A stretch of DNA of 32,672 nucleotides. Source: Candidatus Gastranaerophilales bacterium (GTDB lineage: Bacteria > Cyanobacteriota > Vampirovibrionia > Gastranaerophilales > Gastranaerophilaceae). Positions within the stretch are counted from its first letter, which is position 1. The number at the start of each line of letters is the position of its first letter. The position numbers and the translations under genes were made by a program. Of this stretch, positions 1 through 19,071 are shown piece by piece. The stretch spans positions 1-32,672 of the forward strand of contig CALUUV010000010.1 in NCBI GenBank assembly GCA_944324055.1, given 5' to 3'. Below the pieces are notes generated by a model. It ran no database searches. It had not been told where the DNA came from and worked only from the letters and a program-made list of their open reading frames with translations.

Positions 1-720
1 CCGGATGAGAAACCACCGGTAAAACCCGATGAAAAACCACCGGTGAAACCTGATGAGAAACCTCCGTTAAAACCGGATGAGAAACCACCAGTTAAACCGG
101 ATGAGAAACCACCGGTAAAACCCGATGAAAAACCACCGGTGAAACCTGATGAGAAACCTCCGTTAAAACCGGACGAAAAACCACCAGTGAAACCGGATGA
201 AAAACCACCGGTGAAACCGGATGAAAAGCCACCGGTAAAACCGGATGAAAAGCCGCCGGTTAAACCCGATGAAAAACCACCGGTAAAACCGGATGAAAAG
301 CCTCCGGTAAAACCCGACGAAAAACCGCCAGTTAAACCTGATGAGAAACCTCCGGTGAAACCCGACGAAAAACCACCAGTGAAACCTGATGAAAAACCGC
401 CAGTTAAACCAGATGAGAAACCACCGGTGAAACCTGATGAGAAACCACCAGTTAAACCGGATGAAAAGCCGCCGGTTAAACCCGATGAAAAGCCACCGGT
501 GAAACCTGATGAGAAACCACCGGTGAAACCTGATGAGAAACCACCGGTGAACCCTGACGAAAAACCACCGGTAAAACCCGACGAAAAACCACCGGTAAAA
601 CCGGATGAGAAACCACCAGTTAAACCGGATGAGAAACCACCGGTGAAACCTGACGAAAAGCCGCCGGTTAAACCCGATGAAAAACCACCAGTTAAACCTG
701 ATGAAAAACCGCCGGTGAAA
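1..720 (+). repeat. Tandem 24-bp repeat, 30 units (PDEKPPVK)
   Basis: Thirty in-frame 24-bp units run from base 1 to 720, followed by one degenerate unit (PDGKPPVD) at 721-744. Only three residue changes occur in the 30 units (two V to L, one K to N), while codons vary widely at third positions (CCA/CCG, GAT/GAC, GAA/GAG, GTT/GTG/GTA). Bases 1-77 are identical to 97-173, a four-unit offset, so at least one block of four units was duplicated recently. The array continues off the left edge. Confidence 0.97.
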
Positions 721-3033
721 CCCGACGGAAAACCACCTGTGGACACAAAGCCTCCGGTGGATACTAAACCGCCAGTGGATAACAAACCACCGATTGATAA
801 TAAACCACCAATCGACAATAAACCGCCGGTGGACAATAAACCGCCAGTGGATAACAAACCACCGATTGATAATAAACCACCAATCGACAATAAACCGCCG
901 GTAGACAATAAACCGCCAGTGGACAATAAACCGCCAGTGGATAACAAACCACCTATCGATAATAAGCCACCAGTGGACAATAGACCACCGGTGAAACCTG
1001 ACATGCCGGAAGTTCCAGATTTTGATATAAGCATTGAACATAATGAAGGAACAAAACCAAATAAACCTCCAATAGATAACAAACCAGGGGTAAATCAAGG
1101 GGTAAATCAAGAAACTAAACCTGATAAACCGCCAATGGACAATAGACCGCCGGTAGATAATAGACCACCAATTATCCCAAACGAAAAACCGCCGATTAAA
1201 CCTTTGTACGGTCCTGACGATATGTTAGACCAATATCTAAACAACGAATTATGGTTACCGAACAGAGATCATGGAGCTGGGGTAAATAAGGGACCTAGAC
1301 CTCCACATCACGGGCATGATGGTATTAGACCTGATAGACCACCGATTGATAACAGGCCGCCAATTGATAACCGTCCTCCAATGGATAATAAACCGCCGGT
1401 AGATAATAGACCACCAATTATTCCAAACGAAAAACCGCCGGTTAAACCGTTATATGGTCCTGACAATATGTTAGACCAATATTTAAACAACGAATTATGG
1501 TTACCGAACAGAGATCATGGAGCCAGACCTAGACCTCCACATCACGGGCATGATGGTATTAGACCTGATAGACCACCGATAGACAATAGGCCGCCAATTG
1601 ATATAAGACCGCCTATCGATAACAGACCGCCGATAGATAATAGGCCGCCAATTGATATAAGGCCGCCTATCGATAACAGACCGCCGATAGACAATAGGCC
1701 GCCGATTGATATAAGACCGCCTATCGATAACAGACCGCCGATAGACAATAGGCCTCCTATTGATATAAGACCGCCTATCGATAACAGACCACCGATTGAT
1801 AATAGGCCGCCGATTGATATAAGACCGCCTATCGATAACAGACCGCCAATTGATAACAGGCCGCCGATTGATAATAGGCCGCCGATTGATAATAGGCCTC
1901 CTATTGATATAAGACCGCCTATCGATAACAGACCGCCGATAGACAATAGGCCTCCTATTGATATAAGACCGCCTATCGATAACAGACCACCGATTGATAA
2001 TAGGCCGCCGATTGATATAAGACCGCCTATCGATAACAGACCGCCAATTGATAACAGGCCGCCGATAGACAATAGACCGCCGGTTAATGATGGAATGCGC
2101 CCACATCCATTCCCTCATCCTGATCATCCGGGACATATAGATGTTAAACCTCAATTACCAGGGTTTAATCCTGATATGGGGTTACAAGAATACATGAGAT
2201 ATGAAATGTTGAGACCTGAACCACCAAGACATGCTCATAGACCTCATCATCATCACCATATGCCACCTCCACCACCTGAGAAGACTATGGATCCTGAAAC
2301 TGCTGCAGCTATGCAAATTATGCAGAATGTTCAGCAACCAACAGACCCTACAATTACTCAAATGAGACAACGTTTGAGTGGAGATGCTGCAGAATTGTTC
2401 TTTACAGGTATGATTAATCTAAATGATTTATCAAATACTATAAAAGAAAATAGTAAAAGTGCTAAATCAAAACTTATATTAGCTATGGCGAATGCATCAA
2501 GACAAGGTATTGATAACTCGCAAATAAATGATACTTTAAAAATGGTTACTGCAAGTATGGCAGCAACTGAAAATAGTACACCATCAAAAATTCTTAAAAA
2601 TATTATAGAATTATATCTTCCTTGGTATCCATTACAACAAGGGGTTGGTTTTGACTTAACAATTGAAACTTTACCTGTTGATCAAAACTTTTTATCTGTG
2701 TTGAAAGTTTGGATACAAACAAGAAACTACGGAAATGTTAATGCTGTATTAACACTATTAACAAGCAATTCCGTTGATATGAATATACAATGTAATGAAA
2801 AATTCCCTAAAGATGATTTATTAAAACGTCTTAATGATGAAACCCATAATCACACAATGCAATCAAGCATAAGTGTAGAAGAAGTTACATCGACAGAAGG
2901 GTATATTGAACCAGACCAACAAGCAAAAGTTAATTTATCATCTACATATGAATTAAACCCTTATTTATTATTAATGGCACATTCATTTATAAAAAATACA
3001 ATTATAATTGATAGTAATATGACACTTACATAA
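1..3033 (+). CDS. Proline-rich repeat protein with FliK/YscP-like C-terminal domain (5' partial)
   Basis: The frame is open from base 1, so the start lies outside the window; a GTG at 43 falls inside a repeat and is not a credible start. Visible: 1010 codons. Order: 30 units of PDEKPPVK, 14 units of PPVDNK type, a linker with two copies of an 82-residue module (LYGPDDMLDQYLNNELWLP), 28 units of RPPIDN/RPPIDI, a His-rich patch, then a non-repetitive domain from about base 2280. That domain has a helical part, an LYLPWYPL motif and beta-rich sequence with IQTRNYGNVNAVL, which resembles the C-terminal switch domain of hook-length protein FliK and needle-length protein YscP. FliI lies 1.4 kb downstream. 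I infer a secreted molecular ruler. The similarity is by eye and not tested; a surface proline-rich protein is the main alternative. Base composition jumps from mid-GC repeats to AT-rich in the C-terminal domain. Confidence 0.6.
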   Translation, partial: PDEKPPVKPDEKPPVKPDEKPPLKPDEKPPVKPDEKPPVKPDEKPPVKPDEKPPLKPDEKPPVKPDEKPPVKPDEKPPVKPDEKPPVKPDEKPPVKPDEKPPVKPDEKPPVKPDEKPPVKPDEKPPVKPDEKPPVKPDEKPPVKPDEKPPVKPDEKPPVKPDEKPPVKPDEKPPVKPDEKPPVNPDEKPPVKPDEKPPVKPDEKPPVKPDEKPPVKPDEKPPVKPDEKPPVKPDEKPPVKPDGKPPVDTKPPVDTKPPVDNKPPIDNKPPIDNKPPVDNKPPVDNKPPIDNKPPIDNKPPVDNKPPVDNKPPVDNKPPIDNKPPVDNRPPVKPDMPEVPDFDISIEHNEGTKPNKPPIDNKPGVNQGVNQETKPDKPPMDNRPPVDNRPPIIPNEKPPIKPLYGPDDMLDQYLNNELWLPNRDHGAGVNKGPRPPHHGHDGIRPDRPPIDNRPPIDNRPPMDNKPPVDNRPPIIPNEKPPVKPLYGPDNMLDQYLNNELWLPNRDHGARPRPPHHGHDGIRPDRPPIDNRPPIDIRPPIDNRPPIDNRPPIDIRPPIDNRPPIDNRPPIDIRPPIDNRPPIDNRPPIDIRPPIDNRPPIDNRPPIDIRPPIDNRPPIDNRPPIDNRPPIDNRPPIDIRPPIDNRPPIDNRPPIDIRPPIDNRPPIDNRPPIDIRPPIDNRPPIDNRPPIDNRPPVNDGMRPHPFPHPDHPGHIDVKPQLPGFNPDMGLQEYMRYEMLRPEPPRHAHRPHHHHHMPPPPPEKTMDPETAAAMQIMQNVQQPTDPTITQMRQRLSGDAAELFFTGMINLNDLSNTIKENSKSAKSKLILAMANASRQGIDNSQINDTLKMVTASMAATENSTPSKILKNIIELYLPWYPLQQGVGFDLTIETLPVDQNFLSVLKVWIQTRNYGNVNAVLTLLTSNSVDMNIQCNEKFPKDDLLKRLNDETHNHTMQSSISVEEVTSTEGYIEPDQQAKVNLSSTYELNPYLLLMAHSFIKNTIIIDSNMTLT
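733..984 (+). repeat. Tandem 18-bp repeat, 14 units (PPVDNK/PPIDNK)
   Basis: Fourteen in-frame 18-bp units coding PP(V/I)D(N/T)(K/R). The V/I pattern VIIVVIIVVVIV suggests that paired or longer blocks were copied rather than single units. Confidence 0.95.
1147..1605 (+). repeat. Direct repeat of about 246 bp, two copies, with a diverged third copy downstream
   Basis: Copy 1 runs from 1147 to 1392 and copy 2 from 1393 to about 1605. Both code PPIIPNEKPP, then a LYGPD-DMLDQYLNNELWLPNRDHGA core, then RPPHHGHDGIRPDRPP. Copy 2 lacks the GVNKG insert of copy 1. A diverged third core (NPDMGLQEYMRYEMLRPEPP, then a His-rich stretch) lies near 2170-2260. The module is the only amphipathic, non-proline-rich element within the repeats. 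Confidence 0.85.
1570..2073 (+). repeat. Tandem 18-bp repeat with 54-bp higher order, 28 units (RPPIDN/RPPIDI)
   Basis: Twenty-eight 18-bp units code RPPID followed by N or I. The last residue follows an N-N-I cycle over most of the tract, giving a 54-bp higher-order period, interrupted once by four N units in a row near 1840-1900. Several 54-bp blocks look nearly identical at DNA level, so copying happened in three-unit blocks. Confidence 0.95.
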
Positions 3034-11611: not shown

Positions 11612-12172
11612 ATGAAAAAACTCTTATTAACAGTTTTAGCATTATGTTTAATGTGTTCAGTTGTTGTAGCAAAACCTTGTAAAAAAGGATGTCCTGTTGC
11701 ACCTCAAACAACACAACAAACAGTAGTGGACAAATGTACTTGTCCTAATTGTGATTGTGACAAATGCGATTGTAAATGTACAAAGAAAGATTGTACATGT
11801 CCAGCTTGTGAAGCAGCAAAAAAACAATTAGAAAATTGCAAATGTCCTCAATGTACTACAAAAGAAGGCAAAAAAGAATGTACATGTCCTGATTGTGAAA
11901 AAGCTAAATCTCAATTAGAAAATTGTGATTGCCCTCAATGTGTAAAACCAACTTGCAATTGTCCAAATTGCCAATGTGACAAATGCAATTGTCAAACAGC
12001 AAAAGATTGTGCTTGCCCAGCTTGTGAAGCAGCAAAAAAACAATTAGAAAATTGCAAATGTCCTCAATGCACTACAAAAGAAGGCAAAAAAGATTGTACA
12101 TGTCCTGATTGCGAAAAAGCTAAATCTCAATTAGAAAATTGTGATTGCCCTCAATGTACACCTAAAAAATAA
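11612..12172 (+). CDS. Exported protein with 39 mature cysteines, duplicated
   Basis: 186 residues. A Sec signal peptide (MKKLLLTVLALCLMCSVVVA) with likely cleavage after A20 leaves a mature chain with 39 cysteines in about 166 residues, in CXC, CXXC and CPXC patterns. Residues 42-110 and 115-182 are an internal duplication; each half holds two sub-units of the form CxCPxCExAKxQLENCxCPQC. The DNA of the two halves is nearly identical at a 216-bp offset, so the duplication is recent. Lysine and glutamate balance the cysteines and there is no membrane anchor or lipobox. I infer a periplasmic or secreted metal-binding, metallothionein-like role; a disulfide-knotted structural or antimicrobial protein is possible. 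AAAGGAG stands about 8 bases before ATG. No known family is recognised. Confidence 0.85.
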   Translation: MKKLLLTVLALCLMCSVVVAKPCKKGCPVAPQTTQQTVVDKCTCPNCDCDKCDCKCTKKDCTCPACEAAKKQLENCKCPQCTTKEGKKECTCPDCEKAKSQLENCDCPQCVKPTCNCPNCQCDKCNCQTAKDCACPACEAAKKQLENCKCPQCTTKEGKKDCTCPDCEKAKSQLENCDCPQCTPKK

Positions 12173-17565: not shown

Positions 17566-17961
17566 ATTGTAGAAAAACATGTATAATTATTGTAGAAAAC
17601 TCATAAGTTTTCTACAGTTTTCTACAATAAAAATATAGAATAAAAAGTTTTCTACAAAATCAAAAAATTATCTACAAAGTTTTCTACACTTTTTCTACAA
17701 AAATATACAATTCTTATTTTTTAAGATATTGCTTGAATAGATACCTATTTAAACACCCTTTTCTACAAATAATTAACCCTTATGATTATTATTAATTTAT
17801 ATATATTATTAATTAATATATATAATAAATAATAAAGAAAAATTTCAAAAAATTTTTAAGCTTTTAGAAATATAAAAAAATGTATCTTTTATATTTAGAA
17901 TATTTTGTTTTTATTTTATAATATAAGATATAAAGAATAAGAAGATTAGGGGAGTAAGAGT
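17566..17961. other. Candidate chromosomal origin oriC: nine DnaA-box-like 9-mers plus AT-rich unwinding element
   Basis: The 396-bp gap before dnaN holds nine 9-mers. TTTTCTACA on plus: 17608, 17618, 17648, 17680, 17691, 17759. TTATCTACA on plus: 17668. On minus: 17568-17576 and 17591-17599. Known boxes are TTATCCACA (E. coli) and TTTTCCACA (cyanobacteria); here position 6 is T in all nine. I see no such 9-mer elsewhere in the window. A tract of nearly pure A/T (about 17783-17860) follows, suited as an unwinding element. Cyanobacterial origins also lie next to dnaN rather than dnaA. Conclusion is by pattern; DnaA binding is inferred. Confidence 0.8.
17894..17922 (+). promoter_or_regulatory. 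Candidate dnaN promoter
   Basis: TTTAGA, a 17-bp spacer and a perfect TATAAT at 17917-17922, which would give a leader of about 33 nt before dnaN. Confidence 0.45.
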
Positions 17962-19071
17962 ATGAAATTTCTTGTTGAAAAAGATAATATGTTTAACGGA
18001 GTAAAAATAGTAGAACGTGCAACTGTTGTAAAAGGTTTGCAGCCAGTTCTTGCTAATATTTTAATTGAAGCAGTATCTCCAAACAAATTAATGTTATCAG
18101 CAACAGATTTTGATTTATCAATAACAACAGAAATAGATGCTCAAATAGAAACTGATGGAAAAATAACACTTCCTGCTAAAAAATTAATGGATATAATATC
18201 TCGCCTAAATGATGGTCTTATTTCTTTTGAATTAAATGAAAATACAATGTTAATAACAAATGGAAAAACAAAGTTTGAAATAATTGGTATTTCAGCATCA
18301 GAATTTCCACAAATAGAAGAAGTAACAAATAAAGAAGAAGAAATAGAAATAGATTTAGAACCATTTACAAAAGGAATTAAAGAAGCAGCATTTGCAGCTG
18401 CAGGATATGAAACAAATAATTTATTATCAGGTGTTGTATGCGATATAAATAAAAATGTATTAGAAATTGCATCAACAGATGGTAATAGATTAGCAAGAGC
18501 AAGAAAAATAATAAATAATAAAGAAGATAAAACAATTCAAATGATAGTTCCTTCAAAAGTTCTTCAAGAATTTTTGAAAATGAGTTATTTATTAGATGAT
18601 GAAAGTGTAAAAATCTACATCGAAAAAACAAAAATGATGATAGAATCTGGAAGAACAAAGATTGTATCAAGATTAATGGAAGGTCAGTATCCAAAATACA
18701 ATCAATTAATTCCAACAACTTTCCCAAAAGAAGCAAAAATAAATGTATCAACAATTATAAAATCATTGGAAAGAGTATCAACAATGGTTAATGAAAAAAC
18801 AAGTATAGTAAAACTTCAATTTAGTGAAAACAAATTAAGTTTGATGGGTGATACTCCGGATGCTGGTGCTTCAGAAGATGAAATTGAAATAACATATTCA
18901 GGAGAAGATATCTTAATTGCATTCAACTATAAATATTTATTAGATTGTTTCAAAAATTTAGAATCAGATGAATTAGTTATAGGAATGAATACAAATCTTT
19001 CAGCAACAGTATTGAAACCATACAATGAAGAAGATTTCGTATATTTAGTAATGCCTGTTCAAATACGTTAA
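17962..19071 (+). CDS. dnaN: DNA polymerase III beta subunit (sliding clamp)
   Basis: 369 residues, the usual clamp length. Three consecutive clamp folds are visible in sequence: N-terminal MKFLVEKDNMFNGVKIVERA and PVLANILIEA, the middle GVVCDINKNVLEIASTDGNRLARA, and the C-terminal EIEITYSGEDILIAFNYKYLLD with the terminal VYLVMPVQIR typical of the family (the C-terminal tail lies by the peptide-binding cleft). It tethers DNA polymerase to DNA. GGGAG stands 7-8 bases before ATG. It lies just after the origin candidate, and dnaA is not adjacent. Its stop overlaps the convergent gene's stop. Confidence 0.97.
   Translation: MKFLVEKDNMFNGVKIVERATVVKGLQPVLANILIEAVSPNKLMLSATDFDLSITTEIDAQIETDGKITLPAKKLMDIISRLNDGLISFELNENTMLITNGKTKFEIIGISASEFPQIEEVTNKEEEIEIDLEPFTKGIKEAAFAAAGYETNNLLSGVVCDINKNVLEIASTDGNRLARARKIINNKEDKTIQMIVPSKVLQEFLKMSYLLDDESVKIYIEKTKMMIESGRTKIVSRLMEGQYPKYNQLIPTTFPKEAKINVSTIIKSLERVSTMVNEKTSIVKLQFSENKLSLMGDTPDAGASEDEIEITYSGEDILIAFNYKYLLDCFKNLESDELVIGMNTNLSATVLKPYNEEDFVYLVMPVQIR

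Follow-up and report, generated by a model that had tools for sequence, protein, structure and literature searches.

Where does chromosome replication begin in a gut bacterium whose dnaN gene is preceded by a tight cluster of near-canonical DnaA boxes, and what do those boxes imply about the initiator that would read them? The Gastranaerophilales, an order of gut bacteria, belong to the non-photosynthetic kin of the cyanobacteria (Melainabacteria/Vampirovibrionia). Few protein-DNA pairings in bacteria are as well conserved as that of DnaA with its box. We analysed a 32,672-nucleotide stretch of DNA from a Candidatus Gastranaerophilales bacterium, referred to here as the window. Searched against named genomes, its DnaN matches metagenome assemblies at 98-99%, and three of these (L193, L195 and L196) carry the name Candidatus Gastranaerophilales. 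An initial annotation of this DNA had proposed nine boxes within 200 bp before dnaN, all with T at position 6 (T6) in place of the usual C (C6), followed by an AT-only tract. Both proposals were borne out: the nine boxes span exactly 200 bp, all nine have T6, and a 52-bp A/T-only run follows them. The features of the locus are as follows.

17568..17767, strand order --+++++++: variant DnaA box cluster of nine boxes (eight TTTTCTACA and one TTATCTACA), by exact-match count
17568..17576, minus strand: DnaA box 1, TTTTCTACA, exact match
17591..17599, minus strand: DnaA box 2, TTTTCTACA, exact match
17608..17616, plus strand: DnaA box 3, TTTTCTACA, exact match
17618..17626, plus strand: DnaA box 4, TTTTCTACA, exact match
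17648..17656, plus strand: DnaA box 5, TTTTCTACA, exact match
17668..17676, plus strand: DnaA box 6, TTATCTACA, exact match
17680..17688, plus strand: DnaA box 7, TTTTCTACA, exact match
17691..17699, plus strand: DnaA box 8, TTTTCTACA, exact match
17759..17767, plus strand: DnaA box 9, TTTTCTACA, adjoining the unwinding region, exact match and trio scan
17768..17779, plus strand: 12-bp spacer AATAATTAACCC, its length constant among relatives (12 bp at 21 of 22 loci)
17780..17794, plus strand: candidate DnaA-trio array TTA TGA TTA TTA TTA (other strand 3'-AAT ACT AAT AAT AAT-5'), from the trio scan
17785..17836, no strand: 52-bp A/T-only run, candidate DNA unwinding element overlapping the trios, the longest such run in the window and kept in relatives
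17962..19071, plus strand: dnaN, DNA polymerase III sliding clamp, PF00712 match to the open reading frame

The 9-mers are clustered beyond chance. Eight exact copies of TTTTCTACA occur in the window against 1.01 expected per 32.7 kb, and none of 100 shuffles reached eight. The annotation had also stated that no boxes lie elsewhere in the 32 kb. This holds for exact TTTTCTACA, which is absent from the rest of the window, but not for TTATCTACA, which also occurs singly at three scattered sites (13249, 19215 and 24916). The classical pattern TTWTNCACA, whose C6 none of the nine boxes carries, is not enriched in the window (4 found, 6.2 expected). Across the 2.07-Mb assembly the 9-mer is no more frequent than expected (110 occurrences against 115 for the reversed pattern), and six of its seven close pairs fall in the candidate origin, the sole such cluster found in that assembly.

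The DNA that follows the last box has the arrangement of an origin. In Bacillus subtilis the basal unwinding system places a DnaA-trio element with consensus 3'-GAT-5' behind a spacer of up to 16 bp (PMC8287927). Three or more trinucleotides with A in the middle, close behind a DnaA box, define such a system. Here five trinucleotides begin exactly 12 bp after the last box and overlap the candidate unwinding element, so that by sequence the succession of box, spacer, trios and A/T run fits a basal unwinding system. The spacer AATAATTAACCC is possibly a decayed second box followed by a short GC-richer gap, the parts expected of such a spacer (PMC8287927). Of 31 loci tested, 22 have a trio-like array behind a T6 box, where shuffled sequence would give 0.014; the window and its near relatives account for six of the 22, so these loci are not wholly independent, although at least nine genera are represented. 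The gap from box to trios is 12 bp in 21 of the 22 (the window and 20 others) and 15 bp in one. Four of the five window trios read 3'-AAT-5' and one reads 3'-ACT-5', ACT units number two or three in several relatives, and the genomes G079 and G086 carry TTA CTA CTA CTA TTA, that is, 3'-AAT GAT GAT GAT AAT-5', which is the trio known from B. subtilis.

Are the boxes kept where a functional site should be kept? We aligned the window with five relatives, taking only those whose upstream region could be aligned (locus L199, where it could not, was left out). Box columns are invariant at 79 of 81 positions as against 27 of 119 in the spacers, and none of 199 circular shifts of the box mask does as well as the real box positions. 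The two box columns that vary are positions 1 and 3; T6 is kept in 54 of 54 box copies. An unbiased count of 9-mers likewise returns TTTTCTACA as the most recurrent, with at least four copies in 12 of 12 family loci. Relatives therefore have the boxes, as the annotation's proposal demands, some directly before dnaN and others in a cluster now separate from the gene. The latter is seen in G044, G141 and G168 (L159, L160 and L172), where the cluster is intact but lies 5 to 80 kb from dnaN, which argues against a mere role as a dnaN operator. Many class origins (L302, L172, L171, L315 and others) contain TTTTGAACA as a second box type among their TTTTCTACA boxes. G003 and G043 have T6 clusters upstream of dnaN and no match to DnaA domain IV; their assemblies may be incomplete, or dnaA may have been lost or have diverged.

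A switch in GC skew is expected at an origin, and the annotation had suggested looking for one near 17.7 kb. Within the window the strand-corrected third-position skew passes from -0.014 to +0.111, which is the right direction but weak. We dropped the window alone as a test because its contig is short and gene orientation dominates the skew, and used relatives with long contigs instead. In G053, G092 and G130 the same measure is negative in every one of 15 stretches on the left side of the cluster, and on the right side 12 of 13 stretches are positive. The stretches were sampled, so that the switch at the cluster is resolved to 20 kb and other switches may exist. The skew thus changes sign at the cluster in all three relatives. 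We conclude that the cluster is almost certainly the oriC of this Candidatus Gastranaerophilales bacterium.

How far does the altered base extend? We surveyed position 6 with TTWTnnACA held fixed, taking the densest cluster (families and genera are given by code); f6, f8 and f9 yielded no clear origin. Outgroup boxes have C6 in 79 of 84 cases. T6 prevails in the main genera of family f1 (114 of 135 boxes), in f2 (60 of 88) and in f4 (10 of 14); the sister family f3 mostly has A6 (15 of 21). Genera g18 and g19 are mixed, with A6 in 14 and C6 in 13 of 29 boxes. Most genomes of the window's family contain TTWTCTACA in pairs, and pairs with C6 (TTWTCCACA) occur almost nowhere in 174 genomes of the class but are common in the rest of the phylum. 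The wider survey genomes presumably belong to the class Vampirovibrionia/Melainabacteria. TTWTCAACA pairs were considered as a class-wide alternative and rejected, as there is about one per f1 genome, scattered and apparently background; only G002 has an A6 cluster at dnaN.

Two departures from the main pattern deserve description. In G002 (L182/L259/L317) the DNA upstream of dnaN holds an origin-like cluster of TTATCAACA (A6) and a TGA TGA TTA TGA TGA array, and DnaA has Gln433; TTATCAACA forms another group downstream of dnaN, at G002:C1:1740422. In g18 and g19 (L179, L180, L296, L297 and L298) the boxes upstream of dnaN are TTTTGCACA, TTTTACACA, TTTTAAACA and TTTTGAACA, and DnaA has Asn or Thr at 433. 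Judged by their sequences, the g18/g19 boxes have in part regained C6, and they carry G or A at position 5.

If the boxes have changed, has the protein? The dnaA gene is not beside the origin but on contig C3. Its product matches PF08299 (E 5e-23), and its domain IV is homologous to 3pvp/3pvv, 1j1v, 8btg and others. DnaA makes base-specific contacts through residues 399, 423, 432-435 and 438-439 (PMC5043019), among which Asp433 is highly conserved in all bacterial classes and contacts box position 7 (PMC8235120). The recognition-helix motif here is FEKKHPTILYS, as against GGRDHTTVLHA in E. coli, so that the Asp-His dyad at E. coli positions 433-434 is replaced by Lys-His. The annotation's suggestion to examine domain IV therefore led to a changed base-reading residue. 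Across the aligned DnaAs of the class the His is kept and the Asp is lost: position 433 is Lys or Arg, less often Thr, Gln or Asn, and never Asp. All outgroup DnaAs of the phylum with a readable motif have Asp433. In the DnaA tree its loss falls on the branch leading to the class; we placed it from the drawn tree and the alignments, since eight rows with an unparsed motif make an automatic count of Asp against non-Asp unreliable.

The shifted DnaA specificity that the annotation had proposed for this lineage thus finds support in both partners, boxes and helix, and needs refinement: the shift is class-wide rather than confined to the genus, and families differ in the new base, which is T in some but A in others. 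Two simple accounts of it fail. Pro435 of this genome is not the cause of T6, as most f1 relatives combine Lys433 and Thr435 with the same T6 box. Nor is there a strict code of one residue at 433 for one base at position 6, as f3 has Lys with mainly A6 and g18/g19 are mixed.

Could the same observations arise in another way? The boxes might instead serve as operators through which some other DNA-binding protein controls dnaN, with no origin present. They do lie directly upstream of that gene, and the binding of DnaA to them is a prediction; yet they differ by one base from the DnaA box that cyanobacteria have at this site, trios follow at fixed spacing, an A/T tract is present, the skew switches at the cluster, and the cluster persists where it has parted from dnaN. 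We regard an operator as extremely improbable. A real origin with unshifted specificity is a less remote proposal, though still an unlikely one. Mutational drift in an AT-rich genome would have turned C6 into T6, and DnaA would still prefer TTTTCCACA and tolerate T6 in a cooperative array. The genome is indeed AT-rich and C to T is a common mutation, but f2 and f3 loci, at about 48-50% GC, show T6 or A6, so AT bias is not a sufficient cause, and cyanobacteria with GC contents down to 34% keep C6. Drift also sits poorly with C5 and C8 of the same boxes, which stay fixed, with the invariance of T6 among relatives, and with a recognition helix changed at a base-reading residue.

It is harder to assign the cause within the protein. 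Specificity may have shifted through other changes in domain IV (helix 4, positions 437-440, or a one-residue deletion before the helix in f1) rather than through residue 433. Several neighbouring residues also differ; Lys433 accompanies T6 in f1, f2 and f4 but A6, for the most part, in f3; and the reported contact of Asp433 is with position 7, not 6 (PMC8235120). Against this, 433 is the only contact residue that has changed consistently, as a comparison of the cyanobacterial KDHTTVMYS with the KKHTTMLYS-type helices of the class makes plain; f2, f3 and f4 have no C6 either, yet do not carry the f1 deletion; and Tyr439 is common to the class and cyanobacteria. We consider a cause outside 433 possible, although it is not the one that we favour.

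We therefore return to residue 433. Its Asp loss or Lys gain may have moved the preference at position 6, and we infer from the sequences that the losses of Asp433 and C6 arose together on the class stem. Since both changes share one branch, the link between residue and base counts statistically as one coincidence. The link finds support in the place of 433 in the DNA contact and in secondary variation, itself suggestive though not one-to-one. On purely chemical grounds, replacing an acidic acceptor with a basic donor beside the C6/A7 step would fit a change from C (amino) to T (carbonyl). We lean towards the view that the initiator and its sites were rewired in concert on the class stem (Vampirovibrionia/Melainabacteria), and that descendants then took separate routes to Lys with T6, to Lys or Gln with A6, and to Asn or Thr with mixed A6 and C6. 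Such a set would be a natural series of evolved amino-acid-to-base readings.

How might this origin work? DnaA, encoded on the other contig, would bind the nine 9-mer boxes (TTTTCTACA in the main) through domain IV. The array would point into the basal unwinding system, in the order last box, 12-bp spacer, five DnaA-trios and A/T-only tract. A DnaA filament is expected to grow toward the trios, where domain III would capture the trio strand; the A/T tract would then open and helicase would load, as described for other bacteria. The distinct feature here would be double-strand recognition at base 6. We consider the whole of this explanation (a chromosomal oriC, DnaA binding via domain IV, a basal unwinding system, and a class-wide change at 433 and base 6) very probable.

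Set beside known systems, the locus is a familiar type of element in altered form: a real origin whose boxes vary throughout the class, with an initiator that has changed to match. The cyanobacterial oriC has TTTTCCACA boxes beside dnaN (PMC4674748), and shares with the window a cluster of 9-mers at dnaN and eight of nine bases; it differs in having C6 rather than T6 and Asp rather than Lys at DnaA 433, and it belongs to a different class of the phylum. The B. subtilis basal unwinding system (PMC8287927) has the same succession of box, short spacer, trinucleotide run and A/T-rich DNA, but the box on the trio side is a T6 variant here, and the window trios are 3'-AAT-5' apart from one 3'-ACT-5'. 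Epsilonproteobacteria offer a case of a lineage-specific box with a matching difference in DnaA specificity (H. pylori TCATTCACA; PMC5043019, PMC4285127), although their variant positions are 2 and 5 and they keep both C6 and the Asp-His dyad. Thermotoga maritima DnaA also has base-reading residues unlike those of most bacteria (PMC4285127, PMC7561715). Its box AAACCTACCACC is a 12-mer whose last six bases, ACCACC, keep CCAC, and its lineage is unrelated. In the lineage variants that a review brings together, positions 2, 3 and 5 are the ones that differ (PMC4285127). The annotation knew of no description of this box, and we likewise found none of an origin or DnaA box of Melainabacteria, Gastranaerophilales or Vampirovibrio, or of TTTTCTACA itself, in the open-access literature, which excludes most subscription papers and where absence is not proof of novelty.

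What would follow? If the reading is right, an essential initiator can alter the core of how it reads DNA across the many sites of a single origin, and the class-wide change of base 6 and residue 433 has left a series of descendants to compare. Origin finders that seek TTWTNCACA may miss such origins, and the variant boxes serve as markers of oriC in an uncultured group of gut bacteria.

Two other features of the window are of separate interest. An open frame of 996 aa at 43-3033 consists largely of KPDEKPPV, DNKPP and DNRPP repeats, and a 186-aa protein at 11612-12172 has a signal-like start and cysteine-rich repeats with CPxC motifs.
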